NCBI GenBank assembly: GCA_027563935.2
Contig: JANVAS020000203.1
Location: forward strand, 124,001 to 188,000
DNA: 64,000 bases
Direction: 5' to 3'
Source: Costus lasius
Taxonomy: Eukaryota > Streptophyta > Magnoliopsida > Zingiberales > Costaceae
The notes under the pieces are model-generated. The model saw only the letters and a program-made list of their open reading frames with translations, was not told the DNA's origin and made no database searches. Shown piece by piece: positions 3,723 through 64,000 of this stretch. Every line of letters starts with the position of its first letter. Positions within the stretch are counted from its first letter, which is position 1. The position numbers and the translations under genes were made by a program.

Positions 3723-3811
3723 TTCCTCTGACGCTGGCAGTGCTGACCAAAGGTCATCACAAGCAGTGAGTGGCACCTAGCAGTGCATCGCTGCTACCCA
3801 GGTCGTTGGAA
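3723..3811 (-). other. LTR three-way-junction RNA-like motif, element A copy
   Basis: In plus orientation the outer stem has TTCC/GGAA, TGAC/GTCG and CTGG/CCAG. The second arm is TGACC-AAA-GGTCA and the third is GCAGTGA/TCGCTGC. CTGG/CCAG here replaces TTGG/CCAA of sister copies, a compensated change. The motif is described fully under 54636-54726. Confidence 0.7.
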
Positions 3812-5768: not shown

Positions 5769-5855
5769 GTCCTATGATATGGGTAGTAGTGATGTGTTGC
5801 TAGATACCCCTCACTACTTATGATGTTTACATCATTGCCATCATCATATGGATCC
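5769..5855 (+). other. LTR three-way-junction RNA-like motif, A2 copy
   Basis: Outer stem ATGAT+ATGG pairs with CCAT+ATCAT. The first arm is AGTAGTGA/TCACTACT with an inner GTGT-TGCTAG-ATAC hairpin, and the second arm is TGATG-TTTA-CATCA. The stem sequences differ from the other families but pairing is kept. Confidence 0.68.
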
Positions 5856-7221
5856 TACGGGGTCACACGCAATAGACTCTTGACGTTGCTTTAATCAGAA
5901 GCCTTAGGATCAAGTTATTGGATAACTTGGATCCATTTGGAAGATTTCATCAGCGCCAATGGGCCTGATGAGTTGGAAGAAAGTTATTGGGGCCAAACTT
6001 CATTTTTGGCAGGTTGACCCGAAATTGACCTAGATTGGTCACATTTGGATTAGGGTTGCATTGGATTGGATCCAATGGCTTAATCAACCTATGCCATGAA
6101 GTTTGGGCTAGCTCATTATCTAATGAGGCCCAATTATAAGTTGTCATGAAGAGGGAATTGGCTTAAAAGGGTATAATGGGGAGAAACCCAACCCCATTGG
6201 CGCCTAGGGGCATAATGGGGTGAGGGTGGCATAAAGTGCTTCCTTTGGAAGGAAGTGGCGCCTCCCCCTTCATTCTTTGATGGTATCTTGCCTCTATGGT
6301 AAGTATGGGGGCTGATATGGCTTGAGGACTCTTTTGGAAAGAGCTTGGGCGCATATGAGAAGTAAGAAGATGTTTATGGTAAAGTCTTGGAGACTTTCCT
6401 TATCTCATGAACCCTACATGCACCCAAATCCTTACACTAGCCGAATTCCTCTTGTTGCGCCTAGCCCTTCTCCTTGGATGGAAAGAATGCCTCTAAGGCA
6501 TGTCTTAGGTTGATATGGCTATTGGGCAAATAAGGATAGGTTGAATGAGGTTTATGGCAAAGTCTTGGAGACTTTCCTTACAATAAACCCCTATCATCCT
6601 AGCCGCCCACTTGGCATGATCTTGGCTCTCCCTTCCTCGCCTCTTGGCTTATAAAAGGGACCCTAGCTGCCTCCTCTCATGGTTTGAATGCTTAGTGGCG
6701 TGAACACAGATAGAGGGGCGAGAGCAAGGGCAAAGGGCGACAACATCAAAGTGGCCGCAAGTCTTCTCCTTCCTCTCCTCTTGGCGCGACTTGGAGAAGG
6801 ACTTGGTGGCGCAACTTCCTCTTAATCTTCCTCAAGGCCGAAACTCTTCTTCTCCCTCTTCTCTTGGAGTGAAGAGCATAAGGAGTTGGCGGCATCTTCC
6901 TTGCACTTGGCGCATGAACCTTAGAGGTGGCGCAAGAATAGTGAAGGAACACTAAGGCTTGATTCTCTTCCCGAGGCTAGCACCAAGCGTGGAAGGGAGC
7001 AACGATCAAGGAGTCGACGCGTGGATACTTGTAGAGGGCGAACACTTGCGCGCCTTCAACATGGCTTCGACATCTAGACAAGCAAAAGAGGTACATCTCT
7101 AACACATCCTTTTGTCTTCTCTCTCGCATGGATCCTTCGGAACGGAATATGTTTCGGGTGTAATGATTCTTCCGCTGCGTCCTGGGACTACAAAATTTTA
7201 AATTACACCCGGTATTCCCAT

Positions 7222-8139: not shown

Positions 8140-9816
8140 TGTTGGGAATCCCCGAACCTCAAAAAAACATAAATACAGTGGAAGCAGAGGTCTGAAACAG
8201 AATTCTAGAAACACCAGGATCACTTACGAGAGAAAACCGAAGGATGTGAAGAGCAGTGCCTTATCAAGCAATTTTAGGAGCAGCCGATGATGGAGACGCA
8301 CAAGGGCCCGTCCTCTGCAATCGCACACACATGGACTCCTCGAAATCTCTCCAACCTCCATGTGTGGTGCTAGCCTCAGGAGATGAGATCCACGCCTCTG
8401 GCCTTCTCAACTTGCGCCAATGCCAAGGAGAAGAAGGGGTGTTGGCAACAAGGAGTGGATAGCACTGCCACTTGTCTCAACCCTTGATGCCGAAAAACTT
8501 TTATTATCATCACCTCCCAGACCCTCATGCTAAGGAGCAGAGGGGAGGCAACAACTAGAGACAAGAGAAGAGTCCGGTACAAAGCAATCTCCCAAGTGGG
8601 CCTCTCTATTTATAATAGCAGAGCCAGATGCACACTAGAGATTTTTCCCATGTGGGATAATGAGCATAGAAGCCTACTCACAATTAAGCGTCATGGGTTC
8701 GAATCCCCGCAGACGCAATTAATTGTAAATTGCGCCCAAGCTTATTAATTAGCCAAGAGAAAAATTCTCTTGCCAATTAATAATTTTATTTTAGTCATGT
8801 GACTAAAGTGCCAAGCCCAAACTTGCACAAAGACCCTTGTTTGACTCATTTTGACAACACAGGTCAATAGAGGTCAAACGTGGTCTACTAGAGTCAACTA
8901 GTGGTCAAACATGAACTAAAATAAAATATCATCTCTTCAATAAAAGTATCAATGCACCAGTTCCCCAAAAAGATCCGTATCACACAATGATTCGATCAGA
9001 GGCTAAACGATCAGTATGAGAACACAAGTATCTAGGTGTGCGACCCTGTAGGTTCTTCAGACGTTGGCAGTGATGACTAAATCATCACAAGCAATGAGTG
9101 GCACCTAGCAGTACATCATTGCTACCCAAGTCATCAGAATGATGTCATCATCGACATCCCCAAAAACTGTGACAAAGTACAAGTGCAGCTTTGTCCATTT
9201 GCCAATTGATGTACAGAATGATGTACCTGGGTATGGCCATACACTTTCAGTCATCAATATAAGGGCGCAATGGACAATCAAGCTTCCCTGAAAGGAAGGG
9301 GCAAATCCTCTATTAGCACATTGAATCCCTCATACGGCTTATGACATACCCAATGACAACCGTTATGACTTCCCTTTCACGGCGAAACGTTAGGTTGCAT
9401 GAAAGTACATCAACCACTGTATAGAGATACCAATGCCCTCAAGTCTAGGACAAGTGCAACTATGTCACTGTGATATTCATCTCGTGACATGGAGATGAAT
9501 CCTCACGGCGGGTCAGTCCAGTATATCTCCCTTGATATACCCATATGCTTGCGTTAGTAACCCGTGCTCAACCAGTGCATATATCGGTCTCAAGTGAATT
9601 ATAGCTGTCCCATATCCACTATGATTCTCGACCAGGGATAAACACAGAGACTAGATTAAATCTATCTCTTAGGGACATTGTATATGCAAATGTACATATG
9701 CGCAGATGTACAAACTTGCATAACAACGACAATGCCAGGATAACTCATCTATCAACTAGATGTGATACACATATCCCAATGGACCATCCTGAGGTCCTAG
9801 GGCATAAACACTAATA
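8140..9816 (-). repeat. 3' LTR of Copia remnant C1 (family 3)
   Basis: Plus orientation starts TGTTGGGAATCCCC and ends CATAAACACTAATA, followed at once by ATCTCCCACTTGCAC, the reverse complement of the polypurine tract. That fixes it as a 3' LTR of a minus-strand element. About 310 bp around 8660-8965 are absent from the sister LTR at 15405. This extra part holds a tRNA T-arm-like sequence (GGGTTCGAATCCC) near 8695-8707. Confidence 0.8.
9053..9139 (-). other. LTR three-way-junction RNA-like motif, C1 copy
   Basis: In plus orientation: outer stem TTCT/AGAA, GAC/GTC and TTGG/CCAA; arms TGATGA-CTAAA-TCATCA and GCAATGA/TCATTGC. GCAATGA/TCATTGC replaces GCAGTGA/TCGCTGC of family 1 with pairing kept. 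Confidence 0.7.
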
Positions 9817-15404: not shown

Positions 15405-16814
15405 TGTTGGGAATCTCCAGACCTCAAAAAAACTTTAAACATAGCGGAAGCGAAGGTCCGAAATAGAATTCCAGAAACACCAGGATCACTTACCAGAAAG
15501 ACCCGAAGGATGTGAAGAGTAGTACCTTATCAAGCAATTCTAGGAGCTGCCAACGATGAAGACGCACAGGTGTCCGTCCTCTATAATCGTGCACACACGG
15601 ACTGACTCGAGATTCCTCCACTCCACGCACGTGCTAGCTTCGGGAGAGGAGATCCACGCCTCTTGATCTTCTCAACTTGCACCAATGCCAAGGAGAAGAG
15701 GGAACGTTAGCGACAAGGAGTGGATAGCACTACCACTTGTCCCAACCCTTGATGCAAAATCTTTTTATTGTCGTCACCTCGAAAACCCTCACGCCAAGCA
15801 GTAGAAGGGAGGCGACAATAAGAGACAAGAGAAGAGTCTGGTGCAAAAATCTCCCAGGTGGGCCTCTCTATTTATAATAGCAGAGCCAGACACACTTTGG
15901 AGATTTTTCCCATGTGGGATCCGAATCACACAATGATTCGATCAGAGGCTAAATGATTAGTACAGAATCTCTGATGTCTAGGTGTGCGACCCTATAGGTT
16001 CTTCAGACGTTGGCAGTGATGACTAAATCATCACAAGCAATGAGTGGCACCTAGCAGTACATCATTGCTACCCAAGTCATCAGAATGGTGTCATCATCAA
16101 CATCCCCAGAAACTGCGACAAAGTACAAGTACAGCTTTGTCCTTTTACAAACTGATGTCCAGATTGGGCAACTGTGTCACACTTGTTAATCCTAATAATA
16201 TGGCATGACTAAATCAGGTTCTCACCTGGGTATGACCATACACTTGTAGTCATCCATAATGGGGCACCATGGACAATCAAGCTTTCCTGCAAGGAAGGGG
16301 CAAATCCTCTATTGGCACATTGAATCCCTCATACGGCTTGTGACATACCCAATGACAACTGTTATGACTCCCCTTTTATGGCGTAGCGTTAGGTTGCATC
16401 AAAGTACATCAATCACTATATAGAGATACCAATGCCCTCAAGTCTAGGACAAGCGCAACTCTATCACTGTGATATTCATCTCGTGACACCGAGATGAATC
16501 CTCACGGCGGGTCGATCCAGTATATCTTCCTTGATATACCCATATGCCTGCGTTAGCAACCCGTGCTCAACCAGCGCATATACCAGTCTCAAGTGAATCA
16601 TAGCTGTCCCATATCCACTATGATTCTCGACTAGGGATAAACACAAAGACTAGATAAAATCTATCTCTTAGGGGCATTGTATATGCAAATGTACATATGC
16701 ACAGATGTACAAACTTGCATAACAACGACAATGCCAGGATGACTCTTCTATCAACTAGATGTGATACATATATCCAATGGACCATCCTAAGGTCCGAGGG
16801 CATAAACACTAACA
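15405..16814 (-). repeat. 3' LTR of Copia remnant C2 (family 3)
   Basis: TGTTGGGAATCTCC...ATAAACACTAACA, followed by the reversed PPT. Clearly the same family as 8140-9816 but about 310 bp shorter in the middle. Confidence 0.82.
15999..16085 (-). other. LTR three-way-junction RNA-like motif, C2 copy
   Basis: Same stems as the C1 copy: TTCT/AGAA, GAC/GTC, TTGG/CCAA, TGATGA/TCATCA and GCAATGA/TCATTGC. Confidence 0.7.
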
Positions 16815-23549: not shown

Positions 23550-24227
23550 TGTTGGGAAACCCCGGGGATATTTTACAAATTTTTCAGAAACAAATACAAT
23601 GCACCGCGGAATAATATCCCCGAAACAGGCCAGTCCCAAAAAACCAATGCAGATCGCATGCGAGAGAGTCGACAAGATGAGATAGAAAATACCTTGAGCA
23701 AGGCAAGGTTGATGTCGTAGTAGGTGCCTAAGCGTGCGCCCTCTGCAGTCTCACATACACGGACCACCTCGAGTCCTCTTCTTCCACGCCCGGTGCTAGC
23801 CTTGGGAAGAAGATCCAAGCCTTGTGCTCCTTCTACGCCACTTGCGCCACCTTCAAAGCATGGAGCGCCAAGAGGAAGGACGAAGAAGGAGATGAAGACA
23901 AGCCGCCAAGACACCAATGCTCCTTGCGTCAAGAGTAAAGGAGGAAGAGGTGCTCTTGGCCTTTGATGGAAGAAGATGCACCACTAGCCCTTAAGTTGTC
24001 GCCCCTCACTTGTGGTTCACACCTCCAAGAGTTGTCTCTCTCATAAGAGGGGCGGCTAGGGTCTCTTTTATAGAGACCATGGGCGGTTTAGGGATGGCTA
24101 CAATTAAGCCAAGTGGGCGGCTAGGAGAATAAGTAGGAAATTGAATTATTTTAATAATTAATCAAGTCTTAATCGAATTAGGACTCTAATTAATTATTTA
24201 AATAATCAAGTCCTAATCCAATTAGAA

Positions 24228-24660: not shown

Positions 24661-24749
24661 TTCCTCTGACGTTGGCAGTGCTGACCTAAGGTCACCACAA
24701 GCAGTGAGTGGCACCTAACAGTGCATCGCTGCTACCCAAGTCATCGGAA
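24661..24749 (-). other. LTR three-way-junction RNA-like motif, B copy
   Basis: Plus orientation: outer stem TTCC/GGAA, TGAC/GTCA and TTGG/CCAA; arms TGACC-TAA-GGTCA and GCAGTGA/TCGCTGC. This is the clearest family 1 example. Confidence 0.72.
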
Positions 24750-25754: not shown

Positions 25755-27433
25755 TGAAAGTTCCCTAAAGGGGGCGAAACCCTAATAGGCGCATATCAGA
25801 GGTTTTGCATTGAGCGGAAGCTAGGGTTTCTAAAATCGCATGCATGATATATGATCAACTTAATAACATGTATAGATCGAGAAGGGATCATACCATAGCC
25901 ATTGCTTGGATGGCGACTTGGAAGCAGAGAACGAAGTAGCTCTCCTCCAAAGCGTGCGCACACAAGATGATTGATCGCCTACTCCTTGTCGTTCCTTGTG
26001 CTAGCAAGGATCTCCAAGTCTCCTGATCGCTTGAAGGGAAGATGAGATGATCTCTTGGCTTTGTCAAGTCCTCTCCTTGGCGTCAAAACTCACCACACGA
26101 GAGAGGAGAGGCGACAAGAGGTGAAGAGGCGAGAATAGGGCGTGACAACTTCGAACGTGCAGGCGTTCCCCATTTTGGAAAACCAATTTCCAAAAATAGC
26201 AAGCCACTTCTTCAACGCAAGATACGTTTACCCCAATCGCAACTTCCTCCCTTGACTTGAACCATGCGCTCACACTAAGTGAACCGGTTCAATTACATTT
26301 GGTTCAAAGACCAAATTAAACCAAGCATTGGTCTAGATCAAATTAAACCATAAGGCTCAAGATCTAACCATTCATCTCTTGATGCTCTTGATCTCATCGA
26401 TCTAGCATCAATTCTCTCGATCGAAGCTTACCAATCTCAAGCTCTGATCAATCAAACATGATCAGACCAGATCTCACTTACAATCAGAGTTTAAATCCCA
26501 TTAAACTGAACCAAAACAATTCAGTCCACACGATCTGACTCAAGTAAGCTATATCATCAAATTGTGCGACCCTAAGGGTTTCCTTTAAATGTCGGTAACG
26601 ATAACTTACGTTATCACGATCAGTGAGGGGTATCTAGCAACACATCACTGTCTCCCGATATAAAGGAAAGAGTCTTCCAAGACTACACCCAAACCACAGC
26701 ACAAGTGTGAACCCAAGTCACTTGACATATGTGTTTCCTTTGCCACTGGATGTTCTTATTGGACAAGCGTGTCAAGCCTGTAATTCCAATATGATGAGAA
26801 TGATTAGATCAGATGAACATAGTCATCTGGGTATGGCCATACACTTTCTCAATCATCTCATCCAGGGGGCCCCTTCAGAACATCACACTCCAAACAAGGA
26901 GACGGCAATCCTATATCTATCACTAGTGCCCTAACATGACTCATGCTCATTATCCAAGATAGTCTACAACCATTATGTTTCAAATGATATTGAACTACCT
27001 CAAAACAATGCCAATCATCATTTAGAAACACAAGTGATCTCAAGTCAGAGGAAATATGCCACTTGTTTGCATATAAGGATTATTCACATTGTGACAAGCA
27101 ATTGAATATCCTAAGTAGGGTCTGTCCAGTACATCCAATGTACCCATGAGTCTACATCTTATTCCATGCTCGAAGCATCCTATAAGATTAGAACACATAT
27201 TAGTCTCAATCATATCAAGGCTGTCTCATGTTCACCAAGATATCTCGACTAAGGACAATACTGCATGTCAGCCAAGCTGAACAGCATTGAGACATTATTC
27301 AGAAGTATACATATTGCAGCAGATGATGTAACAACCTGAATAACAACCATTGCCTTTATAAACATTAAGTTTATACATGATACTGATATAATCCCAAGGC
27401 CTCAAACATTAGCCTTAAGGGAATACCCCAACA
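25755..27433 (-). repeat. Solo LTR, Copia family 2, in element B
   Basis: TGAAAG...CCCCAACA, 1679 bp, flanked by the perfect TSD CCACT (25750-25754 and 27434-27438). No PBS, PPT or internal sequence is attached, so it is a solo LTR left by recombination between the two LTRs of a family 2 element such as D or G. It has the palindrome GTATGGCCATAC at 26831-26842. Confidence 0.92.
26579..26669 (-). other. LTR three-way-junction RNA-like motif, solo-LTR copy
   Basis: Plus orientation: outer stem TTTCCTTTA/TAAAGGAAA and TCGG/CCGA; arms GATAAC-TTAC-GTTATC and CAGTGA/TCACTG. All stems are intact. Confidence 0.72.
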
Positions 27434-36919: not shown

Positions 36920-38599
36920 TGAAAGTCCCCAGAAGGGGGCGAAACCCTAAAGCATGGCGCGTATAAAATTTTTAAGCAGCGGAAGAGGGTTTCTAGGGGA
37001 TCGGATTCATGCATAACATATGATCAACTTGTTAAACCGATTGCAAACATAGAAGATGTCATACCGATGCCATTTCTAGATGGCGACTTAGAAGCAGAGA
37101 GCGATAGGGATCTCCTCCAAAGGATGCGCACACAAGATGAAGAAGTCGCCTACTCCGATGGTGCTCCTTGTGCTAGCAAGGTTCCAAGAGGTCCTTGTCG
37201 TATGGAAGGGAAGAGAGAACCTTTTCTTTGCTTGGCGATTTGCTTCTTGTCGTCAACCCCAAAAACACTCGAATGAGAGAGCCACGCGAGGAAGGAGCGA
37301 CAATAGGCGTGAAGAGAAGCTATCGTGAGGCGTGGTCACGATTTGGAAACATGGTTTCTAAAAATAGTAAACCACTCTCTTCATGCGACCATGGGATTAC
37401 CCCAAGCGCATACTCCTCTCCACTTGAACCATGCGCTCACTTGATGAGCTGGTTCAATTTCAGTTTGGTCCAAGACCAATTAACCCAAGCGATTTGGTCT
37501 AGATCACAATTAAACCCTAAGGCTCCAGATCCAACCGTTCATCTCTTGATGCTCCTGATCTCACCGATCTAGCATCCATTCTCTCGATCGAAGCTTACCG
37601 ATCTCAAGCCCTAATCAATCAAACAAGATCAGACCAGATCTCACTTACAATCAGAGACTAAATCCCTTTAAACTGAACCCAAACAATTCAATCCATACGA
37701 TCTGACTTAAGTAAGCCATATCATCAAATTGTGCGACCCTGAGGGTTTCCTTTAAATGTCGGTAACGATAACTCACGTTATCACGATCAGTGAGGGGTAT
37801 CTAGCAACACATCACTGTCTCCCGATATAAAGAAAAGAGTCTTCCAAGACTACACCCAAACCACAGCACAAGTGTGAATCCACTTCACAAGGCATGCAAG
37901 TTTCCTTTGCCACTGGATGTTCTTATTGGACAAGCGTGTCAAGCTTGTAACTCCAATATGATGAGCATGATTAGATCAGATGATCATAGTCACCTGGGTA
38001 TGGCCATACACTTTCTCAATCATCTCATCCAGGGGGGCCCCTTTAGAACATCACACTCCAATCAAGGAGACGGCAATCCTATATCTATCACTAGCGCCCT
38101 AACATGACTCAAGTTCACCATCCAAGATAGTCTATAACCATTATGTTTCAAATGATATTGAACTACCTCAAAACAATGACAATCATCATTTAGAAACACA
38201 AGTGATCTCAAGTCAGAGGAAATGTGCCACTTGTTGCAATCAAGGATTATTCACATTGTGACAAGCAATTGAATATCCTAGTAGGGTCTGTCCAGTACAT
38301 CCAATGTACCCATGAGTCTACATCTTATTCCATGCTCGAAGCATCCTATAAGATTAGAACACATATTAGTCTCAATCATATCAAGGTTGTCTCATGTTCA
38401 CCAAGATATCTCGACTAAGGACATAAGGCATGTCAGCCTAGCTGAACACCATTGAGACATTATTCAGAAGTATATGTATTGCAGCAGATAATATAACAAA
38501 CTGAATAACAACCATTGCCTTTATAAACATAAGAGTTTATACATGATACTGTTACAATCCCAAGGCCTCAAACATTAGCCTTAAGGGCATACCCCAACA
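36920..38599 (-). repeat. 3' LTR of Copia D
   Basis: 1680 bp, TGAAAGTCCCC...CCCCAACA, followed by the PPT. It contains AGCGGAAG at 36978-36985 and the palindrome GTATGGCCATAC at 37998-38009. Confidence 0.93.
37746..37836 (-). other. LTR three-way-junction RNA-like motif, D 3' LTR
   Basis: Arms GATAAC-TCAC-GTTATC (sense loop GTGA, still GNRA type) and CAGTGA/TCACTG. The outer stem TTTCCTTTA/TAAAGAAAA has one broken pair. Confidence 0.68.
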
Positions 38600-38614: not shown

Positions 38615-38619
38615 TTAAT

Positions 38620-43285: not shown

Positions 43286-43288
43286 AGA

Positions 43289-48100: not shown

Positions 48101-48431
48101 CTTGAGCACGTGAGCTCCCACTGGGCTCCCTTCAGCCAGTTTGCTCTGAAAGAACAGCTTAGTCAAATTATAGCGCTCAGTCCTCGCCTGCGCAGCATAC
48201 AGCATCTTGAGGTTTGCTATAATTTCTATAGCCGACATATCCTCATGCTGACGCTGCAGCGGTGGCGTCATAGACGCTAGCATCAGGCAAGCGACATCAA
48301 TGCTATCATTGACATGCTTTTCATAGGCTTCCCGAACCGCCCTTGCGGCGTTCAGAGCGGGCTGAGGCGGTATAGCCGTCTTGAGGATATACAGTTTCCT
48401 CTCTGCCTTAAGAACAATCTTAAGGTGTCCG
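45130..48431 (-). pseudogene. gag-pol: Copia D gag-protease-integrase-RT, one nonsense codon
   Basis: A single frame with frames 47753-48502 and 45083-47686 in phase. Gag (AERKLYIL, NDSIDVACLMLASM, KLAEGSPVGAHVLKM), basic stretch, zinc knuckle CFHCGQLGH-stop-KKDC: the Trp codon is TAG at 47753-47755. Protease SWVLDTAYG has Tyr where relatives have Cys. Integrase has LWHSHLGH, the CKACLMGKM zinc part and HSDVCGPF / TDDFSRYGY / NGVSERRNRT with D, D, E. RT has MDVKTAFLNG and YVDD at 45587-45598. It ends at the E insertion. Apart from the stop and the two insertions it looks recently functional. Confidence 0.92.
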
Positions 48432-50165
48432 TGATGGAACCCTTTCAGGAGGGGAGCGCAAAACCTATTGTGAGAAGAACCCCTTTCATGAGGGGGGCGC
48501 AAGTCATATGTTTCTTTCTCATAGCAGCGGAATTAGGGTTTCCACATAAGATCGCATTCTATACTTTCATATAATCAACTTGAATAACAAGTGAGAGATT
48601 CATTACCATGGCCATGGGAAGGTGCGGCTTGGAAGAAGAAAGATCGAAGGGATCTTCTCCAAAGAAATCACACACAAGGGATGAAAGCTTCCTCCTTGCG
48701 CAACTCTTGTGCTAGCAAGATTGCCAAGCTTTTCCAACCGTGTGTAGGAGATTAGATGAAAAGGGCTTCCTTCTTTTCGAGAGCTCTTCTTCCTTGGCGC
48801 AAGAACGATGCCTTCCACACGAGCAAGCCGTTCCCAAAACCACGTCCAAGAAGCAAAACCGAAAAACATTAGAGAGACATCAAGCCATGAACGCATATGC
48901 GTTATGCTTTTGGAACTTTCCAAAATTGGCAACGATTAAGAGTTGGCGTTCACGTTCCCATGAACCAAACGCAACCTCTTCTCCCTCTTGAACCAAGCGC
49001 TCAACCCATGAGCCGGTTCAATATCCTTGGTTCAATAGCGAAACCAAATCAGCCCATAAATTAAGTCTAGATCAAATTAGACCCCAAGGTCCTAGATCTG
49101 ACCATTCATCATCTGACGCTTCTGATCGCATCGATCTAGCATCATCTCTCTCGATCGAAGCTTACCGATCTAAAGCTCTAATCAATCAAACATGATCAGA
49201 CCAGATCTCACTTACAATCAGAGATTAAATCTCTTTAAACTGAACCAAAACAATTCAGTCCACACGATCTGACTTAAGGAAGCCATATCACCAAATTGTG
49301 CGACCCTGAGGGTTTCCTTTAAATGTCGGTAACGATAACTTACGTTATCACGATCAGTGAGGGGTATCTAGCAACACATCACTGTCTCCCGATATAAAGG
49401 AAAGAGTCTTCCAAGACTACTCCCAAACCATAGCACAAGTGTGACTCAATTCACAAGGCATACATGTGTCCTTTGCCACTGGATGTTCTTATTGGACAAG
49501 CGGGTCAAGCTTGTAACTCCAATACGATGAGCATGATTAGATCAGATGCACATAGTCATCTGGGTATGGCCATACACTATCTCAATCATCTCATATAGGG
49601 GGGCCCTTAGAACACTACACTCCTTAAACAAGGAGACGGCAATCCTATGTCTATCACTAGTGCCCTAACCTGATTCAAGCTCACCATCCAAGATAGTCTA
49701 TAATCATTATGTTTCAAATGATATTGAACTACCTCAAGACAATGACAATCATCATTCAGAAACACAAGTGATCTCAAGTCAGAGGACATGTGCCACTTGC
49801 TGCTTACAAGGATCATTCACATTGTGACAAGCAATGGAATATCCCAGTAGGGTCTGTCCAGTACATCCAATGTACCCATGAGTCTACATCTTATTCCATG
49901 CTCGAAGCATCCTATAAGATTAGCACTCATATTAGTCTCAATCATATCAAGGCTGTCTCATGTTCACCAAGATATCTCGACTAAGGACATATAGCCTGTC
50001 AGCCTAGCTGAACAGCTTTGAGACAGTATTCAGAAGTACACTTATTACAGCAGACAAGGTAACAACCTGAATAATAACCATGCCTTTATAAACTTAAGAG
50101 TTTATTACATGATACTAATACAATCCCAAGGCCTCAAACATTAGCCTTAAGGGCATACCCCAACA
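48432..50165 (-). repeat. Solo LTR (Copia family 2 relative) in gag of D
   Basis: TGATGGAACC...CCCCAACA, 1734 bp, TSD GTCCG (48427-48431 and 50166-50170). Downstream parts match the family 2 LTRs, but its first ~60 bp differ and contain a near-duplication (CCTTTCAGGAGGGG, CCTTTCATGAGGGG). Palindrome at 49564-49575. Confidence 0.9.
49313..49403 (-). other. LTR three-way-junction RNA-like motif, solo LTR in D
   Basis: All stems intact: TTTCCTTTA/TAAAGGAAA, TCGG/CCGA, GATAAC/GTTATC and CAGTGA/TCACTG. Confidence 0.7.
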
Positions 50166-50238
50166 GTCCGTACCAGTCTGAGAAGTTTGGTCCAGCAAAC
50201 TTCTCCCTTTCCAGTAGGGATCGCACATTGAAGCTCAT
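50166..50238 (-). pseudogene. gag: Copia D gag, first 24 codons
   Basis: ATG at 50238 (MSFNVRSLLEREKFAGPNFS), separated from the rest of gag by the solo LTR. The start follows CATTGTTGTAG and a short segment conserved in G, where this ATG is changed. Confidence 0.85.
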
Positions 50239-51317
50239 GGTGTTCGTTGCTGCAGGAATCTACAACAATGCAAGAACAGCAAGGTCAGTATCAATGTTCA
50301 GAATCAATCCAGGACTTAAGAAAGATTCTTTTCTCACTATTTTATCTGGCTGAAAAATCCAGCAAAAACAGCCCGAAAGAGTAGAACTCTTTTAGTGAGA
50401 TGGGATCCAGATTTCATACTTGGTCTCCGCGTCCCGCTCAGGCGAGATAAGATGCACAGAGAGTACAAGCACTAGTCTCTGGTAGGCTGTCCCAGCCAAT
50501 CGCCAACCCGTGAGATTCCCCTTCATCTGGGCAATCCAGCTGACTGTGCCAACTGAGTTGGTACAACACAGTCTCTGATCCCACAGATGGCTGCCTCCAT
50601 GTGCTACCATATGCGCCACATATGTAGCCTACATGGTCAAGCTGACCCGACCTACTCCCTGGACCACCACGTGCTATGCTGAGCAACGAGAAGCGATAAA
50701 TCCCTTCTCTGTAACACGCAGGTGTAATCCCGCACCGTCTGAAGATAGATGGACGTGCCCACTGAGTGGGTACAACACGGCTCCAACGATAATCAGAACA
50801 GTGAGGTTTCGCGTCAGAAGGCTTACGAGCTTGATATTTTAGCGTTGGATTTTAACGGTCTTTTATCTTCTTGACTATCATGCAATTCCTATGGTGATAG
50901 CAGAAGATAAACTCATGCAATTCTAATTATAAAAGCAATAAATAGAAAGCATGCTGATCTTATGTGGTAAAAGCCCATTAAGCCTAAGTTAGACCTTAAA
51001 TTAAACTTAAGTCTTCACTTGCTTTTCTTCATGGGTCTTTTGCTTCTCATCTGGCCCAACCCAGGGCCTAAGCGCCATCTGCAGCTCAGGTGCGCCTACC
51101 AGGGAAAATGCGCCTGGTCCCAGAGTCGAACCCTGGACCTCCCACCTGGTCAAGCCTCTGCTGCAAGCACCTCTGCCAAGTGTGCTCTGTGCTCTTGTCT
51201 GACTATCATACTTCATGTAGTTTTCGCATGAATAACTTTCGCATGTAGTTTAGATCTAAGGTGTTGCGCAAACATGGATCACTAAAGTTAAGCAATCATA
51301 CAAACATGCATATAACC
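50239..51317 (-). other. 5' leader of Copia D
   Basis: About 1.1 kb without coding potential. It holds the three-hairpin module (50425-50784) and a tRNA-like stretch with box A and box B sequences (51121-51197, see G at 56434-56489). It is shorter than the leader of G. Confidence 0.75.
50425..50784 (-). other. Three-hairpin leader module, Copia D
   Basis: Hairpins at 50425-50461 (outer CTCTGTG/CGCGGAG on the sense strand with wobbles), 50542-50573 (outer GACTGTG/CACAGTC, inner CCAAC/GTTGG) and 50751-50784 (inner CCCAC/GTGGG). Loops are CTCAG-like instead of the CCTC of A and A2. Confidence 0.72.
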
Positions 51318-51330
51318 GGCTCTGATACCA
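51318..51330 (-). other. Primer-binding site (initiator Met-tRNA), Copia D
   Basis: Reverse complement TGGTATCAGAGCC, two bases from the LTR. Confidence 0.93.
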
Positions 51331-51332
51331 AA

Positions 51333-53011
51333 TGAAAGTCCCCAGAAGGGGGCGAAACCCTAAAGCATGGCGCGTATAAAATTTTTAAGCAGCGGAAGAG
51401 GGTTTCTAGGGGATCGGATTCATGCATAACATATGATCAACTTGTTAAACCGATTGCAAACATAGAAGATGTCATACCGATGCCATTTCTAGATGGCGAC
51501 TTGGAAGCAGAGAGCGATAGGGATCTCCTCCAAAGGATGCGCACACAAGATGAAGAAGTCGCCTACTCCGATGGTGCTCCTTGTGCTAGCAAGGTTCCAA
51601 GAGGTCCTTGTCGTATGGAAGGGAAGAGAGAACCTTTTCTTTGCTTGGCGATTTGCTTCTTGTCGTCAACCCCAAAAACACTCGAATGAGAGAGCCACAC
51701 GAGGAAGGAGCGACAATAGGCGTGAAGAGAAGCTATCGTGAGGCGTGGTCACGATTTGGAAACATGGTTTCTAAAAATAGTAAACCACTCTCTTCATGCG
51801 ACCATGGGATTACCCCAAGCGCATACTCCTCTCCACTTGAACCATGCGCTCACTTGATGAGCTGGTTCAATTTCAGTTTGGTCCAAGACCAATTAACCCA
51901 AGCTATTTGGTCTAGATCACAATTAAACCCTAAGGCTCCAGATCCAACCGTTCATCTCTTGATGCTCCTGATCTCACCGATCTAGGATCCATTCTCTCGA
52001 TCAAAGCTTACCGATCTCAAGCCCTAATCAATCAAACATGATCAGACCAGATCTCACTTACAATCAGAGACTAAATCCCTTTAAACTGAACCCAAACAAT
52101 TCAGTCCATACGATCTGACTTAAGTAAGCCATATCATCAAATTGTGCGACCCTGAGGGTTTCCTTTAAATGTCGGTAACGATAACTCACGTTATCACGAT
52201 CAGTGAGGGGTATCTAGCAACACATCACTGTCTCCCGATATAAAGAAAAGAGTCTTCCAAGACTACACCCAAACCACAGCACAAGTGTGAATCCACTTCA
52301 CAAGGCATGCAAGTTTCCTTTGCCACTGGATGTTCTTATTGGACAAGCGTGTCAAGCTTGTAGCTCCAATATGATGAGCATGATTAGATCAGATGATCAT
52401 AGTCACCTGGGTATGGCCATACACTTTCTCAATCATCTCATCCAGGGAGGCCCCTTTAGAACATCACACTCCAATCAAGGAGACGGCAATCCTATATTTA
52501 TCACTAGCGCCCTAACATGACTCAAGTTCACCATCCAAGATAGTCTATAACCATTATGTTTCAAATGATATTGAACTACCTCAAAACAATGACAATCATC
52601 ATTTAGAAACACAAGTGATCTCAAGTCAGAGGAAATGTGCCACTTGTTGCAATCAAGGATTATTCACATTGTGACAAGCAATTGAATATCCTAGTAGGGT
52701 CTGTCCAGTACATCCAATGTACCCATGAGTCTACATCTTATTCCATGCTCGAAGCATCCTATAAGATTAGAACACATATTAGTCTCAATCATATCAAGGT
52801 TGTCTCATGTTCACCAAGATATCTCGACTAAGGACATAAGGCATGTCAGCCTAGCTGAACACCATTGAGACATTATTCAGAAGTATATGTATTGCAGCAG
52901 ATAATATAACAAACTGAATAACAACCATTGCCTTTATAAACATAAGAGTTTATACATGATACTGTTCAATCCCAAGGCCTCAAACATTAGCCTTAAGGGC
53001 ATACCCCAACA
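51333..53011 (-). repeat. 5' LTR of Copia D
   Basis: 1679 bp, nearly identical to 36920-38599. The sense-strand TATA box TTTATAAAGG is at 52931-52940 and the palindrome at 52411-52422. Confidence 0.95.
52159..52249 (-). other. LTR three-way-junction RNA-like motif, D 5' LTR
   Basis: Same as the D 3' LTR copy: second arm loop GTGA on the sense strand, outer stem with one mismatch. Confidence 0.68.
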
Positions 53012-53383: not shown

Positions 53384-53871
53384 TGTTGGGAAACCCTGGG
53401 GATATTTTACAATTTTCAGAGATAGAGATTACAAAATACATTGCACAGTGGAAGCAATATCCCCGAAATAGGCCGGTCCCAAAAACCCAGTGAAGATCAC
53501 AAGCAAGAGAGTCGACACGATGAGTTAGGAAATACCTTAGAGCAAGATGAGGTCGATGTCGTGATAGGCGCCCAAGTGTGCGCCCTCTGCAGTCTCACAC
53601 ACACGGACCCCTCGAGTCCTCTTCTTCCACGCTCGGTGCCAGCCTCGGGAAGAAGATCCAAGCCTTGTGCTCCTTCTTCAAAATATGCGCCACCTCCAAG
53701 GTAGATGCGCCAAAGATGAAGAAGGATGAGGGAGAGGGAAACCGCCAAGCACCAAGTTCCTTACGTCAAGAGTGAAGGAAGAGGCTTGTGGCTAGGGTTT
53801 GGAAGGAAGAAGAAGATGCACCACTTCTTGGTGTTGTCGCCCTTCAAGCCCTTGCTTTTGCCCCTCCTCTT
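53384..53871 (-). repeat. Copia family 1 LTR (H), first part
   Basis: Starts TGTTGGGAAACCCTGGGG inside F's LTR (left TSD candidate CTTTA). Continues at 62950 after element G. Minus orientation. Confidence 0.85.
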
Positions 53872-53944
53872 TGTTGGGGTATGCCCTTAAGGCTAATGTT
53901 TGAGGCCTTGGGATTATATCAGTATCATGTATAAACTCTATGTT

Positions 53945-53950
53945 TATAAA
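53945..53950 (+). promoter_or_regulatory. TATA box of the G 5' LTR
   Basis: TATAAA in TGTTTATAAAGGC, 74 bp into the LTR. A second TATAAA lies just upstream at 53928-53933. Transcription from here would carry the structured motif at 54636 in the leader. Confidence 0.55.
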
Positions 53951-54635
53951 GGCAATGGTTGTTATTCAGGTTGTTACATTATCTGCTGCAATGTGTATAC
54001 TTCTGAATAATGTCTCAATGATGTTCAGCTAGTCTGACATGCAGTGTAGTCCTTAGTCGAAATATCTTGGTGAACATGAGACAACCTTGATATGATTGAG
54101 ACTAATATGTGTTCTAATCTTATAGGATGCTTTGAGCATGGAATAAGATGTAGACTCATGGGTACATTGGATGTACTGGACAGACCCTACATAGGATGTT
54201 CAATTGCTTGTCACAATGTGAATAATCCTTGTATGCGAACAAGTGGCATACATCCTCTGACTTGAGATCATTTGTGTTTCTAAATGATGATTGGCATTGT
54301 TTTGAGATAGTTCGATATCATTTGAAACATAATGGTTATATACTATCTTGGATGGTGAGCATGAGTCATGTTAGGGCGTTAGTGATAGACATAGGATTGC
54401 CATCTCCTTCATTGGAGTGTGATGTTCTAAAGGGGCCCCCTGGATGAGATGATTGAGAAAGTGTATGGCCATACCCAGATGACTATGTTCATCTGATCTA
54501 ATCATTCTCATCATATTGGAGTTACAGGCTTGACACGCTTGTCCAATAAGAACATCCAGTGGCAAAGGAAACATGTATGTCTAGTGAAATGGATTCACAC
54601 TTGTGCTGTGGTTTGGGTGTAGTCTTGGAAGACTC

Positions 54636-54726
54636 TTTCCTTTATATCGGGAGACAGTGATGTGTTGCTAGATACCCCTCACTGATTGTGATAACGTAAG
54701 TTATCGTTACCGACGTTTAAAGGAAA
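54636..54726 (+). other. LTR three-way-junction RNA-like motif, reference copy (G 5' LTR)
   Basis: Sense-strand fold: closing stem TTTCCTTTA/TAAAGGAAA plus TCGG/CCGA; arm 1 CAGTGA/TCACTG carrying an inner hairpin GTGT-TGCTAG-ATAC; arm 2 GATAAC-GTAA-GTTATC with a GNRA-type loop. AGGGTCGCAC follows within 8 bases in most copies. Families 1, 3 and A2 keep every stem with other sequences (arm 1 GCAGTGA/TCGCTGC, GCAATGA/TCATTGC, AGTAGTGA/TCACTACT in plus coordinates or sense), and the TGCTAG loop is near-invariant. The inner hairpin pairs fully only on the sense strand (GTGT/ATAC and GTAC/GTGC need G-U), which argues for RNA. Confidence 0.75.
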
Positions 54727-55556
54727 CCCTTAGGGTCGCACAATTTGATGATATGGCTTACTTAAGTCAGATCGTGTGGACTGAATTGTTTGGGTTCAGT
54801 TTAAAGGGATTTAATCTCTGATTGTAAGTGAGATCTGGTCTGATCATATTTGATTGATTAGGGCTTGAGATCGGTAAGCTTCGATCGAGAGAGTTGATGC
54901 TAGATCGGTGAGATCAGGAGCATCAGGAGATGAACGGTTAGATCTGGAGCCTTAGGGTTTAATTGTGATCTAGACCAAATGCTTGGGTTAATTGGTCTTT
55001 GAACCAAACCAAAATGAACCGGCTCATCATATGAGCGCATGGTTCAATGGGAAGAGAAAAATGTGATGGTTCACAAGGAGTGAACGCATCACACGTTGAG
55101 GGGGTTTTTCTATTTTGGGAAACCATGTTTCCAAAACATGGTCACGCCTCACGTTCGCTCCTCTCACGCCTATTGTCGCCTCTTCCTCTCTATGCTCTCT
55201 CAACTCTCGTGTGTTGAAGGAGTTGACGACAAGGAGGTCTCAGCCAAGCAAGACATCTCTTCTTCCCTTCCATTCGATCAGGAGACTTGAAGGTCTTTGC
55301 TAGCACAAGGATCAACAAGGAGTAGGCGATCTTCTTCTTGTGTGCGCATCTTCTGGAGGAGATCCCTTTCGCTCTCTTCTTCCAAGGCACCATCCAAGCA
55401 ATGGCGATGGTATGACTCTTATCAATGTATACAAGTTTTAATAGTTGATCATATGACATGCATGCAACCGATCATCTAGAAACCCTTATTTCCGCTGCCC
55501 AAAATTTTATATGCGCCACTTTAGGGTTTCGCCCCCTTTATAGGGGACTTTCAATT

Positions 55557-55569
55557 TGGTATCAGAGCC
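55557..55569 (+). other. Primer-binding site (initiator Met-tRNA), Copia G
   Basis: TGGTATCAGAGCC, three bases after the LTR. Confidence 0.95.
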
Positions 55570-56433
55570 TGGTTATAAGCATGTTTTTATGATTTCTTGA
55601 GGCTTTGTGATCCATGTTTGCGCTTGTATGCTTAGATCTAAACTACATGCGAAAATTACATGTTAAGTTGTTCATGCGAAAACTTGATGAACATGTTTTC
55701 TAGTTGGCGCATGTTGTAGTTTTTCTTCAAAACTTGTTAACTTGCGCGCCTCACTTAGATCTATAGCCGCCTACTGTAAAACCTTAGACGGGTTATTAGG
55801 GTTGAAATCATAGTCGAGTCTAGATCCAACCAGTCTGATCAGACTATCTGACAGCCTAGAAGGGTCGACCAGATGGCATCTGTGCGCAAGCACAAGGTGG
55901 CTATAGGTTGACTGCAGACAGGCGTGTAGCGATGTCTGGTTGAGACAACCAATGAACGCTCTTGAGTCAGGCCCGGGCTCACACCCGCTTGCCAGAACTC
56001 ATGAGGCTCGTTCAGCCCAACGCATGCATTGTTGGCCACTGGGTCAACTCAAGTCAGTTAGGACTTGGTGCATGCAAGGGCAGTGGGTCTGACTAGGTCT
56101 GATGAGTGAATCCCTATTAATGAACCGTTGTAAGGTAGTAGGGCACATAAGGAAAATAAAATTGATGCCTATGGGTTTTCGAAAACTTTATTTTCTTATT
56201 GTTGGATCACATGTTGATTGTATACCATGATGATTGTCTATTTAATCTTATGTGGGCTGCCTATTTTAATGTGTGCTGTGCTGGGGCCTATGTGCCTGGA
56301 TTAAACTGTAAATTATTATAATTGTGATCTGCGCATCACATTTTAATTAATTTATTGTGTAATTGACCTGCGTGTCAATCTTGTCTAGATAGATTAAATT
56401 GTATTTTAATCAGACAAGAGCACAGAGCACACT

Positions 56434-56489
56434 TGGCAGAGGCGCATGCAGCAGTGGCTTGACCAGGTGGGAGGTCCAGGGTTCGACTC
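56434..56489 (+). promoter_or_regulatory. Pol III-like box A and box B in the leader of G
   Basis: TGGCAGAGGCG (56434-56444) resembles box A and GGTTCGACTC (56480-56489) resembles box B, with the box starts 46 bases apart as in tRNA genes. Copia D keeps the segment, with a longer stem around box B. It may be a fossil tRNA-derived SINE captured by the element. No full cloverleaf was found. Confidence 0.4.
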
Positions 56490-56822
56490 TAGGACAGGCG
56501 CATTTACCTGGTGGGCACACCTGAGCTGCAGTGGGCGCTTGGGCCCTGGGTTGGGCCAGATGAGATGCAAAAGACCCATCAACAGCTCAAGTGAAGACTT
56601 AAGTTAAATTAAGGTCTTACCTAGGCTTAATGGGCTTTTACAAATAAGATCAGCATGCTTTCTATTTATTGTTTATATAATTAGAATTGCATGATTTAAT
56701 CTTCTGCTATCACCATAGGGTTTGCATGATAGTTAAGAAGATAAAAGACCGTTAAAATCCAATGCTAAAATATCAAGCTCGTAAGCCTTCTAGCGCGAAA
56801 CCTCACTGTTCTGACTATCGTT

Positions 56823-57183
56823 GGGGCCGTGTTGTACCCACTCAGTGAGCACGCCCATCTATCTTCAGACGGTGTGTGATTACACCTGCGTGTTACAGGG
56901 AAGGGATTTATCGCTTCTCGTTGCTCAGCATAGCACGTGGTGGTCCAGGGAGTAGGTCGGGTCAGCTTGACCATGTAGGCTACATATGTGGCGCATATGG
57001 TAGCTATATGGAGGCAGCCATCTGTGGGATCAGAGACTGTGTTGTACCAACTCAGTTGGCACAGTCTGCTGGATTGCCCAGATGAAGGGGAATCGCACGG
57101 GTTGGCGATTGGCAGGGATTGCCTACCAGAGATTAGTGCTTGTACTCTCTGTGCATCTTATCTCGCCTGAGCGGGACGCGGAG
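56823..57183 (+). other. Three-hairpin leader module, Copia G
   Basis: 56823-56856 (outer GGGC-GTG/CACGCCC), 57034-57067 (outer AGACTGTG/CACAGTCT, inner CCAAC-TCA-GTTGG) and 57147-57183 (outer CTCTGTG/CGCGGAG, inner TCTCGC/GCGGGA). Each has a GTTGTA- or CATCTTA-type bulge only on the 5' side. Confidence 0.75.
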
Positions 57184-57379
57184 ACCAAGTATGAAATCTG
57201 GATCCCATCTCACTAAAAGAGTTTTACTCTTTTGGGCTGTTTTGCTGGATTTTTCAGCCAGATAAAATAGTGAGAAAAGAATCATTCTTAAGTCCTGAAT
57301 TGATTCTCACATTGATACTGACCTTGCTGTTCTTGCATTGTTGTAGATTACTGCAGCAACGAACACCACAAATTTCAAT

Positions 57380-61246: not shown

Positions 61247-61251
61247 ATTAA

Positions 61252-61266: not shown

Positions 61267-62949
61267 TGTTGGGGTATGCCCTTAAGGCTAATGTTTAAGG
61301 CCTTGGGATTATATCAGTATCATGTATAAACTCTATGTTTATAAAGGCAATGGTTGTTATTCAGGTTGTTACATTATCTGCTGCAATGTGTATACTTCTG
61401 AATAATGTCTCAATGATGTTCAGCTAGTCTGACATGCAGTGTAGTCCTTAGTCGAAATATCTTGGTGAACATGAGACAACCTTGATATGATTGAGACTAA
61501 TATGTGTTCTAATCTTATAGGATGCTTTGAGCATGGAATAAGATGTAGACTCATGGGTACATTGGATGTACTGGACAGACCCTACATAGGATGTTCAATT
61601 GCTTGTCACAATGTGAATAATCCTTGTATGCGAACAAGTGGCATACTTCCTCTGACTTGAGATCACTTGTGTTTCTAAATGATGATTGGCATTGTTTTGA
61701 GATAGTTCGATATCATTTGAAACATAATGGTTATATACTATCTTGGATGGTGAGCATGAGTCATGTTAGGGCGCTAGTGATAGACATAGGATTGTCATCT
61801 CCTTCATTGGAGTGTGATGTTCTAAAGGGGCCCCCTGGATGAGATGATTGAGAAAGTGTATGGCCATAGCCAGATGACTATGTTCATCTGATCTAATCAT
61901 TCTCATCATATTGGAGTTACAGGCTTGACACGCTTGTCCAATAAGAACATCCAGTGGCAAAGGAAACATGTATGTCTAGTGAAATGGATTCACACTTGTG
62001 CTGTGGTTTGGGTGTAGTCTTGGAAGACTCTTTCCTTTATATCGGGAGACAGTGATGTGTTGCTAGATACCCCTCACTGATTGTGATAACGTAAGTTATC
62101 GTTACCGACGTTTAAAGGAAACCCTTAGGGTCGCACAATTTGATGATATGGCTTACTTAAGTCAGATCGTGTGGACTGAATTGTTTGGGTTCAGTTCAAA
62201 GGGATTTAATCTCTGATTGTAAGTGAGATCTGGTCTGATCATGTTTGATTGATTAGGGCTTGAGATCGGTAAGCTTCGATCGAGAGAATTGATGCTAGAT
62301 CGGTGAGATCAGGAGCATCAGGAGATGAACGGTTAGATCTGGAGCCTTAGGGTTTAATTGTGATCTAGACCAAATGCTTGGGTTAATTGGTCTTTGAACC
62401 AAACCAAAATGAACCGGCTCATCATATGAGCGCATGGTTCAATGGGAAGAGAAAAATGCGATGGTTCACAAGGAGTGAACGCATCACACGTTGAGGGGGT
62501 TTTTTCTATTTTGGGAAACCATGTTTCCAAAACATGGTCACGCCTCACGTTCGCTCCTCTCACGCCTATTGTCGCCTCTTCCTCTCTATGCTCTCTCAAC
62601 TCTCGTGTGTTGAAGGAGTTGACGACAAGGAGGTCTCGGCCAAGCAAGACATCTCTTCTTCCCTTCCATTCGATCAGGAGACTTGAAGGTCTTTGCTAGC
62701 ACAAGGATCAATAAGGAGTAGGCGATCTTCTTCTTGTGTGCGCATCTTCTGGAGGAGATCCCTTTCGCTCTCTTCTTCCAAGGCACCATCCAAGCAATGG
62801 CGATGGTATGACTCTTATCAATGTATACAAGTTTTAATAGTTGATCATATGACATGCATGCAACTGATCATCTAGAAACCCTTATTTCCGCTGCCCAATA
62901 TTTTATATGCGCCACTTTGGGGTTTCGCCCCCTTTATAGGGGACTTTCA
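61267..62949 (+). repeat. 3' LTR of Copia G
   Basis: 1683 bp, TGTTGGGGTATGCCC...GGACTTTCA, TATAAA at 61340-61345. The palindrome has decayed to GTATGGCCATAG (61858-61869). Confidence 0.96.
62031..62121 (+). other. LTR three-way-junction RNA-like motif, G 3' LTR
   Basis: Identical in all stems to the 5' LTR copy. Confidence 0.72.
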
Positions 62950-64000
62950 CTCTTGTTGTCACGCCTCTAAGGAATATGCATCATAACAAGAGGGGGGTGG
63001 CTAGGGTCACTTATAAAGAGCTAGAGGCGGTTAGGGTAAGGGTTGAGATCATGACAAGTGTATGGCTTGGATGAGAAGGTTTGAGGTAAGGAAAGTCTCC
63101 AAGACTTTACCATAAACCTCTTTCAACCTTTCCATAAGCTACCAAGCCTTGCCTTGTGCGCAAAGGCCTAGCCTTGCGCCCCAAGCAATGCCTTAATGCA
63201 TTCACACTATCAATGGGAGAGGGCTAGGCACATAAAGCTTCCTTAATGAAGCAAATTTGCCATCCAAACCCCATTATGCCCCTTAGGCGCCAATGGGCTT
63301 GGCTTCCTCCCCATTATACCCTTTTAACCTATTGCCTCTTCATGACAACTTATTTTTGGGCCTCATTGGATAATGAGCTAGCCCAAACTTCATTACATGG
63401 CTTGATTAAGCACTTGGATCCAATCCAATGCAACCCTAATCCAAATGTGGCCAACCATGGTCAATTTCGGGTCAACCTGCCATAAATGGAGTATGGCTCC
63501 AATAACATCCTTCCATCTCATCAGGCCTATTGGCACTGATGAAATCTCCAAAATAGATTCGAGTTATCCAATAACTCGATCATAAGGCTTCCCGATCAAT
63601 ACGAGAACTGGAGTATCAAGGTGTGCGACCCTGTAGGTCCCTCTGACGTTGGCAGTGTTGACCAAATGTCACCACAAGCAGTGAGTAGCACCTAGCAGTG
63701 CATCGCTGCTACCCAAGTCATCAGAATGGATATCGACATCGACATCCCCATCATTGCAACAAGGTACAGATGCATTACAGTCTCTTTGCCGAACTGATAT
63801 CCGATTGGACAAGTGTGTCACCACTTGTTTTCACCCAATCACATGGTTATGACTAAGTCAGGTTCTCACCTGGGTATGGCCATTCACTTTCAGTCATAGA
63901 ACCATAGAGGAGCTCTATGGATATCATACTTCCCTTAGGAAGGGGCAAATCCTATGTCTATCCATTGACCTTCTCATATGGGTCGTGACATGCTCAATGA
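62950..64000 (-). repeat. Copia family 1 LTR (H), second part, runs off right edge
   Basis: Resumes with CTCTT (TSD of G) and is collinear with about 3090-4090 of the element A LTR, leaving roughly 450 bp beyond the window. The region 63246-63485 has a small frame that is LTR sequence, not a gene. Confidence 0.85.
63638..63726 (-). other. LTR three-way-junction RNA-like motif, H copy
   Basis: Plus orientation: TGAC/GTCA and TTGG/CCAA closing stems, GCAGTGA/TCGCTGC arm intact; the TGACC arm has one mutated base and the outermost stem has changes on both sides (TCCC, AGAA). A partly decayed copy. Confidence 0.6.

Follow-up and report, generated by a model that had tools for sequence, protein, structure and literature searches.

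A three-way-junction RNA fold on the sense strand, kept by compensatory change across several families of Copia retrotransposons in Costus lasius, is confirmed as real; it displays a near-invariant hexaloop, UGCUAG, and its exact complement, CUAGCA, forms the loop of a second hairpin further down the same LTR. The original prediction described the fold and missed the complementary loop downstream, which probably gives the near-invariant UGCUAG its function. Our favoured explanation, held with moderate confidence, is that junction and partner are the two halves of an RNA clasp closed by a UGCUAG:CUAGCA kissing interaction, which would join the ends of the RNA in those families that have a TATA box between junction and partner. 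The two hairpins, the covariation in each, the complementarity of their loops across families and the intervening TATA box in most of the non-F1 copies examined were read from the sequence of one genome, F1 being the most abundant family in the window, by which we mean the whole 64,000-nucleotide stretch of DNA that was analysed.

A large part of many plant genomes consists of LTR retrotransposons, yet only a few of the RNA signals that serve them are known. In a survey of LTRs the U3 region was described as poorly conserved, with few recognisable motifs besides the TATA box (PMC3601003). If our interpretation is correct, these elements would have an undescribed way of joining distant parts of their RNA, perhaps both ends, and a directly testable interaction between two RNA sites would be at hand as a candidate mechanism for end-to-end contact in plant Copia RNAs. 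The junction and its partner also provide a handle for finding the same system in other plants.

The three-way junction in Copia LTRs

The junction occurs in both LTRs of a Copia element, here called E-A, which occupies positions 53872-62949 (+) of the window. The LTRs of E-A (1,682-1,683 bp, with 15 differences over 1,682 aligned bases) start with TGTTGG and end with TTTCA and are flanked on both sides by the TSD CTCTT, so that the TG...CA ends, short TSD, PBS and polypurine tract of a Ty1/Copia LTR element are all present; the PBS presumably suits initiator-Met tRNA. Pfam matches place integrase before reverse transcriptase in pol, the order of Ty1/Copia elements, with gag_pre-integrs and rve in the ORF at 57839-59218 and RVT_2 in the ORF at 59219-60541. 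Among the best matches of a 248-residue piece of the reverse transcriptase (best 7,996 candidates scored) most were plant proteins, those of Hibiscus sabdariffa being 68-76% identical. The 12 junction copies of the window, nine of them on the minus strand, belong to families F1 (six copies), F2 (three), F3 (two) and F5 (one); these labels, like F7 below, were assigned in the present analysis. The features are as follows.

53872..55553, plus strand: 5' LTR of E-A (TSD CTCTT at 53867-53871; PBS TGGTATCAGAGCC at 55557-55569)
61267..62949, plus strand: 3' LTR of E-A (TSD CTCTT at 62950-62954; polypurine tract GTGGGAGA at 61258-61265, directly upstream)
54636..54726, plus strand: F1 three-way junction in the 5' LTR of E-A (hexaloop TGCTAG at 54666-54671; tail AGGGTCGCAC at 54732-54741)
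55295..55310, plus strand: F1 partner hairpin CTTTG[CTAGCA]CAAGG in the 5' LTR of E-A (loop at 55300-55305, complementary to the junction hexaloop)
55340-55346, plus strand: possible second contact GTGTGCG in the 5' LTR of E-A, downstream of the partner hairpin at 55295..55310
62031..62121, plus strand: F1 three-way junction in the 3' LTR of E-A (hexaloop at 62061-62066; tail at 62127-62136; partner CTAGCA at 62696-62701)
5769..5855, plus strand: F5 three-way junction (hexaloop at 5798-5803; tail at 5859-5868)
6650..6657, plus strand: F5 TATA box between the junction at 5769..5855 and its partner
6977..6982, plus strand: F5 partner loop CTAGCA
24661..24749, minus strand: F2 three-way junction (hexaloop TGTTAG at 24715-24720, with a U-G wobble to the partner)
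24065..24072, minus strand: F2 TATA box between the junction at 24661..24749 and its partner
23794..23799, minus strand: F2 partner loop CTAGCA for the junction at 24661..24749
3723..3811, minus strand: F2 three-way junction (hexaloop at 3777-3782; TATA box at 3093-3100; partner loop at 2841-2846)
9053..9139, minus strand: F3 three-way junction (hexaloop at 9105-9110; TATA box at 8607-8614; partner loop at 8368-8373)
15999..16085, minus strand: F3 three-way junction (hexaloop at 16051-16056; TATA box at 15869-15876; partner loop at 15632-15637)
26579..26669, minus strand: F1 three-way junction (hexaloop at 26634-26639; partner loop at 25999-26004)
37746..37836, minus strand: F1 three-way junction (hexaloop at 37801-37806; partner loop at 37171-37176)
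49313..49403, minus strand: F1 three-way junction (hexaloop at 49368-49373; partner loop at 48710-48715)
52159..52249, minus strand: F1 three-way junction (hexaloop at 52214-52219; partner loop at 51584-51589)
63638..63726, minus strand: F2 three-way junction in the LTR split by E-A (hexaloop at 63692-63697)
53635-53646, minus strand: likely partner of the junction at 63638..63726, beyond E-A (reads CTGGCA; CUGGCA would still pair by U-G)

E-A itself (53867-62954 with its TSD CTCTT) sits inside an older F2 LTR, the halves of which lie at and above 62955 and at and below 53866, and its insertion parts the junction of that LTR from its partner. Elsewhere in the window, a pair of LTRs at 39140-40983 and 43289-45129 (99.6% identical), with a 733-aa ORF without Pfam match between them at 40926-43127 (-), is nested in an F1 element at 36920-53011, and a 51-base tandem array at 33277-33638 lies between repeats at 31209-32369 and 35759-36919 that are 97.4% identical.

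The motif had been predicted at 12 places in one common layout, and it is present and folds on the sense strand at all of them: a closing stem, an arm 1 with an inner hairpin and the hexaloop (UGCUAG in 11 copies, UGUUAG in one), an arm 2, and a tail reading AGGGUCGCAC (GGGGUCACAC in F5). The further claim that the stems differ between families yet pair was also borne out. In an alignment of nine distinct rows from the window, pairing is kept in 94.6% of 240 cells and nine of 27 pairs show double-sided change (a level reached in 3 of 500 shuffles); the covariation score, 0.376 compared with 0.248 after shuffling (0 of 500), falls to 0.084-0.149 when the columns are slid by 1-3. The stem sequences quoted in support of the prediction do pair, but some of those given for minus-strand copies are the antisense letters. 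A covariance-model search had been proposed as a check; the model, R1, returned 54 matches in 285 kb (the window together with 27 of 28 loci, L003 being left out) with E-values from 5e-28 to 7e-18, and no further matches up to E = 1. These 54 matches comprise 45 distinct rows, and in their alignment, which was fitted to the model, pairing is kept in 93.4% of 1,202 cells, with 12 of 27 pairs double-changed (24 of 500 shuffles) and 111 double-change cells against 35.7 after shuffling (0 of 500), the shuffle controls here and for the nine rows ignoring relatedness among copies. Counts of further pair types did not rise above the shuffles (498 of 500 for the nine rows, 500 of 500 for the 54 matches).

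Selection had been thought to act on the sense RNA, and sense-strand G-U cells do outnumber A-C cells by 85 to 44; the main exception, a C-A mismatch in arm 1 of F2 (16 rows), would be G-U on the opposite strand. The GNRA loop described for arm 2 is found in the F1 copies of the window, but L008 has ACAA there. Ensemble folding of stretches of about 300-350 nt leaves the junction loop unpaired at 0.65 in F1 and 0.60 in the others, the background being 0.34-0.35. In the 1.28 Gb host genome, arm 1 and its loop, written as a degenerate 31-base pattern, have 77,298 matches against 0 for the reversed pattern, and the tail word TAGGGTCGCACA occurs 33,621 times against 15 reversed; these figures count copies, not independent families. 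The original prediction named no known motif of this shape in plant LTRs. An Rfam scan of the window, self-cleaving ribozymes among the families, produced nothing that reached a gathering score, and loose Rfam scans of two copies came to only 8.6 bits of 50 and 15.3 of 73, so that described RNA families and ribozymes were set aside as candidates. A 26-base pattern had 0 matches in viral_contigs.

The partner hairpin and its loop

The hairpin with the loop CUAGCA lies 419-1,244 nt downstream of the junction loop, and GCTAGCA(C) recurs at a hairpin tip in this position in most of the LTRs that bear the fold. Its F1 form is CCUUG[CUAGCA]CAAGG and variants of this, and F2, F3 and F5 have a longer stem, for example UCUUCUUCC...GGAAGAAG, with the tip GG[CUAGCA]CC. 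CTAGCA is found downstream of 11 of the 12 window copies, the exception being the F2 copy split by E-A. When 20 further copies were fetched by their junction only, the partner was present in 18, and the other two break off right past the junction. Altogether, 83 junction hits in all fetched DNA yielded 64 records of junction, tail and partner, 36 of them distinct; the 19 hits dropped comprise seven without a tail by the pattern used and 12 without a partner, of which four run off the fetched stretch and the others are decayed (L009, for example) or interrupted. The 36 distinct records combine UGCUAG with CUAGCA in 33 cases, UGCUAG with UUAGCA in two and UGUUAG with CUAGCA in one, and the three variants keep their pairing by G-U.

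An unbiased test asked, for each of the 4,096 hexamers, in what share of copies it forms a loop with two or more closing pairs at a distance of 350-1,300 nt downstream. CTAGCA ranked first, with shares of 0.96, 0.76, 0.50 and 0.77 in F1, F2, F3 and F5, and the next best hexamer reached 0.15 in its worst family, for 77 of 82 junction hits and with family labels assigned by simple patterns that misplace a few old copies. In F7, which stood outside the ranking, the share was 0.25. By mere presence CTAGCA came sixth of 4,096, after pyrimidine-rich words and its own neighbours GCTAGC and TAGCAC. Only two 8-mers, GCTAGCAC and GACTTGAG, are common to 11 divergent LTRs, which were picked after the partner had been noticed, and none is common to any of five control sets. 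In the 11 LTRs GACTTGAG lies 335-412 nt upstream of the junction hexaloop (at 54259 of the window in E-A), in variable folds.

The partner stems covary in their own right, in rows chosen by a regular expression that fixes letters including the 5' side of the apical stem. All of 80 cells pair in F1 (16 rows), three of five pairs being double-changed (14 of 500 shuffles), with a covariation score of 0.318 against 0.211 shuffled (0 of 500). For F2, F3 and F5 together with L015 (19 rows), 96.6% of 208 cells pair and five of 11 pairs are double-changed (50 of 500), with 27 double-change cells against 8.4 (0 of 500) and a score of 0.488 against 0.278 (0 of 500); pair-type counts in this set were not above shuffles. 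The row for L006 in alignment A4 was chosen by hand (L006:920-964), the scripted pick being a stray match. Partner-stem cells are G-U in 29 cases and A-C in one. In ensemble folds the partner loop is unpaired at 0.78 in F1 and 0.52 in the others against a background of 0.40, and the pair closing CUAGCA has a mean probability of 0.57 in F1 and 0.16 in non-F1 copies, a weakness which means that the six bases may sit within a larger apical loop in the latter.

Two cases bear on how loop variants behave, both pairing by G-U and each with its variant in the two LTRs of what looks like one element: in L018 the variant is UUAGCA, and L058 and L059, which lie on one strand at a distance of 6.6 kb, share UGUUAG, L058 keeping CUAGCA and the partner stretch of L059 aligning with that of L058. 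A hoped-for preference for keeping the wobble among genome-wide variants was contradicted, TGTTAG, which pairs, being counted 207 times against 1,181 for TACTAG, which breaks the pair. Decay following insertion is the likelier cause of the excess of TACTAG; many of these copies belong to F2, in which the mutated base would lie in a CHG context on the opposite strand. Same-strand pairs 6-9 kb apart numbered two among 100 TGTTAG places listed and none, by eye, among 100 TACTAG places listed. One of the two TGTTAG pairs, L060/L061, looks like a segmental duplication because an F1 copy lies at the same spot in both. A family with a fully exchanged loop pair was not found in this one genome. Patterns with an exchanged inner stem were drawn up for flipped pair 30-37, flipped pair 29-38 and a third flip, GATGRNNTGCTAGNNYCNNCTCNNT, with results for the first two: the former gave one unrelated-looking match, and the latter gave 16 scattered genome matches that represent an old family, F7 (L050-L057), with the inner stem GCTT[TGCTAG]AGGC. 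In F7 the partner is recognisable in three of eight fetched copies (L050, L053 and L054) and not in the other five, and a TATA box, GTATAAATAAG, stands at +730 to +760 in four of the eight.

The tail AGGGTCGCAC may make a second contact in F1-F3, a suggestion we regard as tentative. Its CGCACA complements a UGUGCG about 38-45 nt past the partner loop, and tail positions t5-t10 pair in 27, 27, 28, 28, 26 and 27 of 28 distinct F1-F3 records. In F5 and F7 five positions can pair with a bulge, t10-u2 being G-C or G-U in five of eight. Shuffled duplexes as good as the native one amount to 2.8% in F1, 5.5% in F2/F3 and 18% in F5/F7, F5/F7 tails pair better with the U5 of F1 than with their own (-11.9 against -8.3 kcal/mol), and the association of t6 with u6 is not significant (p 0.60). 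With energies that are moderate in F1-F3 and unsupportive in F5/F7, the contact of the tail with GUGUGCG was demoted from an equal partner of the loop pairing.

Promoter position and the proposed clasp

The original prediction placed the fold in a long leader. This does not fit most non-F1 copies: past the junction and 145-352 nt before the partner, a TATA box is found in 28 of 38 distinct copies, against one of 38 in a control stretch, and in F3 AATAAA follows about 110 nt after it. With such a late TATA box between the parts, the junction would belong to U3 and the partner to R/U5, so that in non-F1 families the former would lie at the 3' end of the RNA and the latter at the 5' end. Transcripts of the barley Copia element BARE start late in a long LTR. 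In the deposited sequence their starts are placed at about nt 1,350 and 1,686 (PMC3735527).

F1 is arranged differently, with a TATAAA about 74 nt into the LTR in 19 of 19 copies tested and, by the patterns used, a late TATA box in none of 28 distinct copies. If the early TATAAA is the promoter, both hairpins would be in the leader and the clasp would not join the ends. This lends some weight to an explanation that we nonetheless consider unlikely in general, namely that an early promoter operates and the hairpins pair within the 5' leader only, controlling translation start, packaging or primer placement; against it, TATAAA is found in the early stretch of none of 17 F2/F3 copies, the late TATA box separates the parts in most non-F1 copies, and F5 has a late TATA box as well as an early TATA-like stretch. 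F1 may instead have a TATA-less late promoter at CTATTTTTGG, a stretch placed much as the late TATA of the other families, or it may have the early one. An early word of F1, TTTATAAAGGCAATGG (window 53945), and the similar TTTATATAGGCATGG of F5 may be an alternative promoter or an unrelated conserved word.

Two differently built, covarying hairpins with complementary hexaloops occur in all families examined, and kissing is the simplest account of this. In the clasp that we favour, the junction would present UGCUAG on the sense RNA, a separate, unrelated-looking hairpin further down the LTR would present CUAGCA, and the two loops would pair in a kissing complex; this pairing in the cell, the transcript ends and the function we infer from sequence. 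In families with the intervening TATA box, a U3 junction would be present in the genomic RNA only towards its 3' end and an R/U5 partner towards its 5' end (with a further copy in the 3' R should the partner lie within R), and the clasp would then join the two ends of one RNA. Its likeliest job would be to keep the RNA in a ring while reverse transcription starts and the first strand is transferred, as Ty1 CYC5:CYC3 does, with translation of the 3'-CITE kind as the second candidate. The clasp might also open unaided behind first-strand synthesis, since the partner would be lost when U5 is copied. A fuller version of this idea is possible, although we hold it with less than even confidence: a class of clasps, in which a U3 three-way junction kisses an R/U5 hairpin and a AGGGUCGCACA tail:GUGUGCG contact is possibly added, would have been kept through at least six LTR families (F1, F2, F3, F5, the L015 lineage and F7), its ring licensing full-length RNA for reverse transcription in that only RNAs with a proper 5' and a proper 3' part would close.

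The other explanations that we considered each account for part of these observations. Were the junction a Y-shaped 3' cap-independent translation enhancer in the 3' UTR, reaching the 5' leader by a kissing loop, its shape would be expected, as Y-shaped 3'-CITEs have the same anatomy and contact 5' hairpins through kissing loops (PMC5712577), MNSV provides a dual contact (PMC5954562), and the packaged RNAs of barley BARE, a plant Copia element, are uncapped and not polyadenylated (PMC3735527). We think this improbable, since translated BARE RNAs are capped and the authors of that paper regard cap-independent translation as seemingly unused (PMC3735527); the junction itself was compared with Rfam. 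A dimerisation signal, with the palindrome CUAG of each loop pairing with the same loop on a second RNA, has precedents in Ty1 and retroviral RNAs, which dimerise via palindromes or kissing loops (PMC4974528; PMC5454406), and CUAG is present in both loops. However, self-pairing would give four base pairs against six for the hetero pair, the few loop variants (three distinct records) break CUAG yet keep the hetero pair, and dimerisation needs no two separate conserved hairpins with complementary six-base loops; we consider this reading very unlikely.

We attach equally little credence to an RNA export or stability element like MusD MTE, IAP RTE or Evade ENE, in which the fold would matter and the kissing pair would not. 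Structured elements are known near the 3' end of other LTR elements, the MTE has a kissing loop (PMC12786077) and the ENE of Evade, a plant Copia element, is located in the 3' UTR (PMC12501189), but the repeated U-rich internal loops next to G-C pairs that are the hallmark of the ENE (PMC12501189) are absent from the folded copies, and a partner hairpin hundreds of bases away is left unexplained. Finally, both stretches could be bound as DNA through a shared GCTAG core, the hairpins being incidental; GCTAG is indeed in both, and GCTAGCAC is in all 11 LTRs tested, but the covariation in the stems of junction and partner and the bias of G-U towards the sense strand render this extremely improbable.

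Comparison with known systems

The kissing clasp would draw on a known principle, 5'-3' kissing, and as far as we have searched there is no description of the present element, of where in the LTR it lies or of how widely it is spread: no plant LTR kissing pair and no such three-way junction were found in a literature from which most subscription papers fell outside the search. In the HIV-1 TAR-TAR* kissing complex two fully complementary six-base hairpin loops pair, TAR* being artificial. The complementary hexaloops are alike in the two cases, but both partners here are natural and conserved. The Evade (Copia93) ENE, too, is a structured element of a plant Copia RNA, situated in its 3' region, and differs in that it is a U-rich triplex former in the spacer before the LTR (PMC12501189), whereas ours is a three-way junction of the LTR without U-rich loops. 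MusD MTE and IAP RTE are likewise structured RNAs of LTR retrotransposons, in this case from animals, and the MTE contains a kissing loop and a pseudoknot (PMC12786077); their contacts are made within one compact element, unlike the two sites hundreds of bases apart described here. The proposed clasp would have in common with the YSS type of 3'-CITE a Y-shaped fold towards the 3' end, in contact with a 5' hairpin through a kissing loop (PMC5712577), the 3' position being in our case a predicted one. The genomes and sequences are other ones, the junction is inside an LTR copied at both ends of the DNA, and a role in translation is hypothetical.

The closest parallel is in Ty1, where CYC5:CYC3 pairing is needed for the initiation of reverse transcription, as proved by compensatory mutations (PMC4974528). 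Ty1 differs in that its CYC5 lies downstream of the PBS, and the interaction proposed here is a six-base loop-to-loop contact, one loop being displayed by the three-way junction of the LTR and the other by a hairpin of its own. The Ty1-like feature that we observe is a pair of complementary, conserved sequences, and their placement at the RNA ends rests on the non-F1 TATA boxes; the clasp would thus resemble CYC5:CYC3 (PMC4974528) as a direct 5'-3' pairing of a Copia-type genomic RNA, recognised in our case from its sequence.
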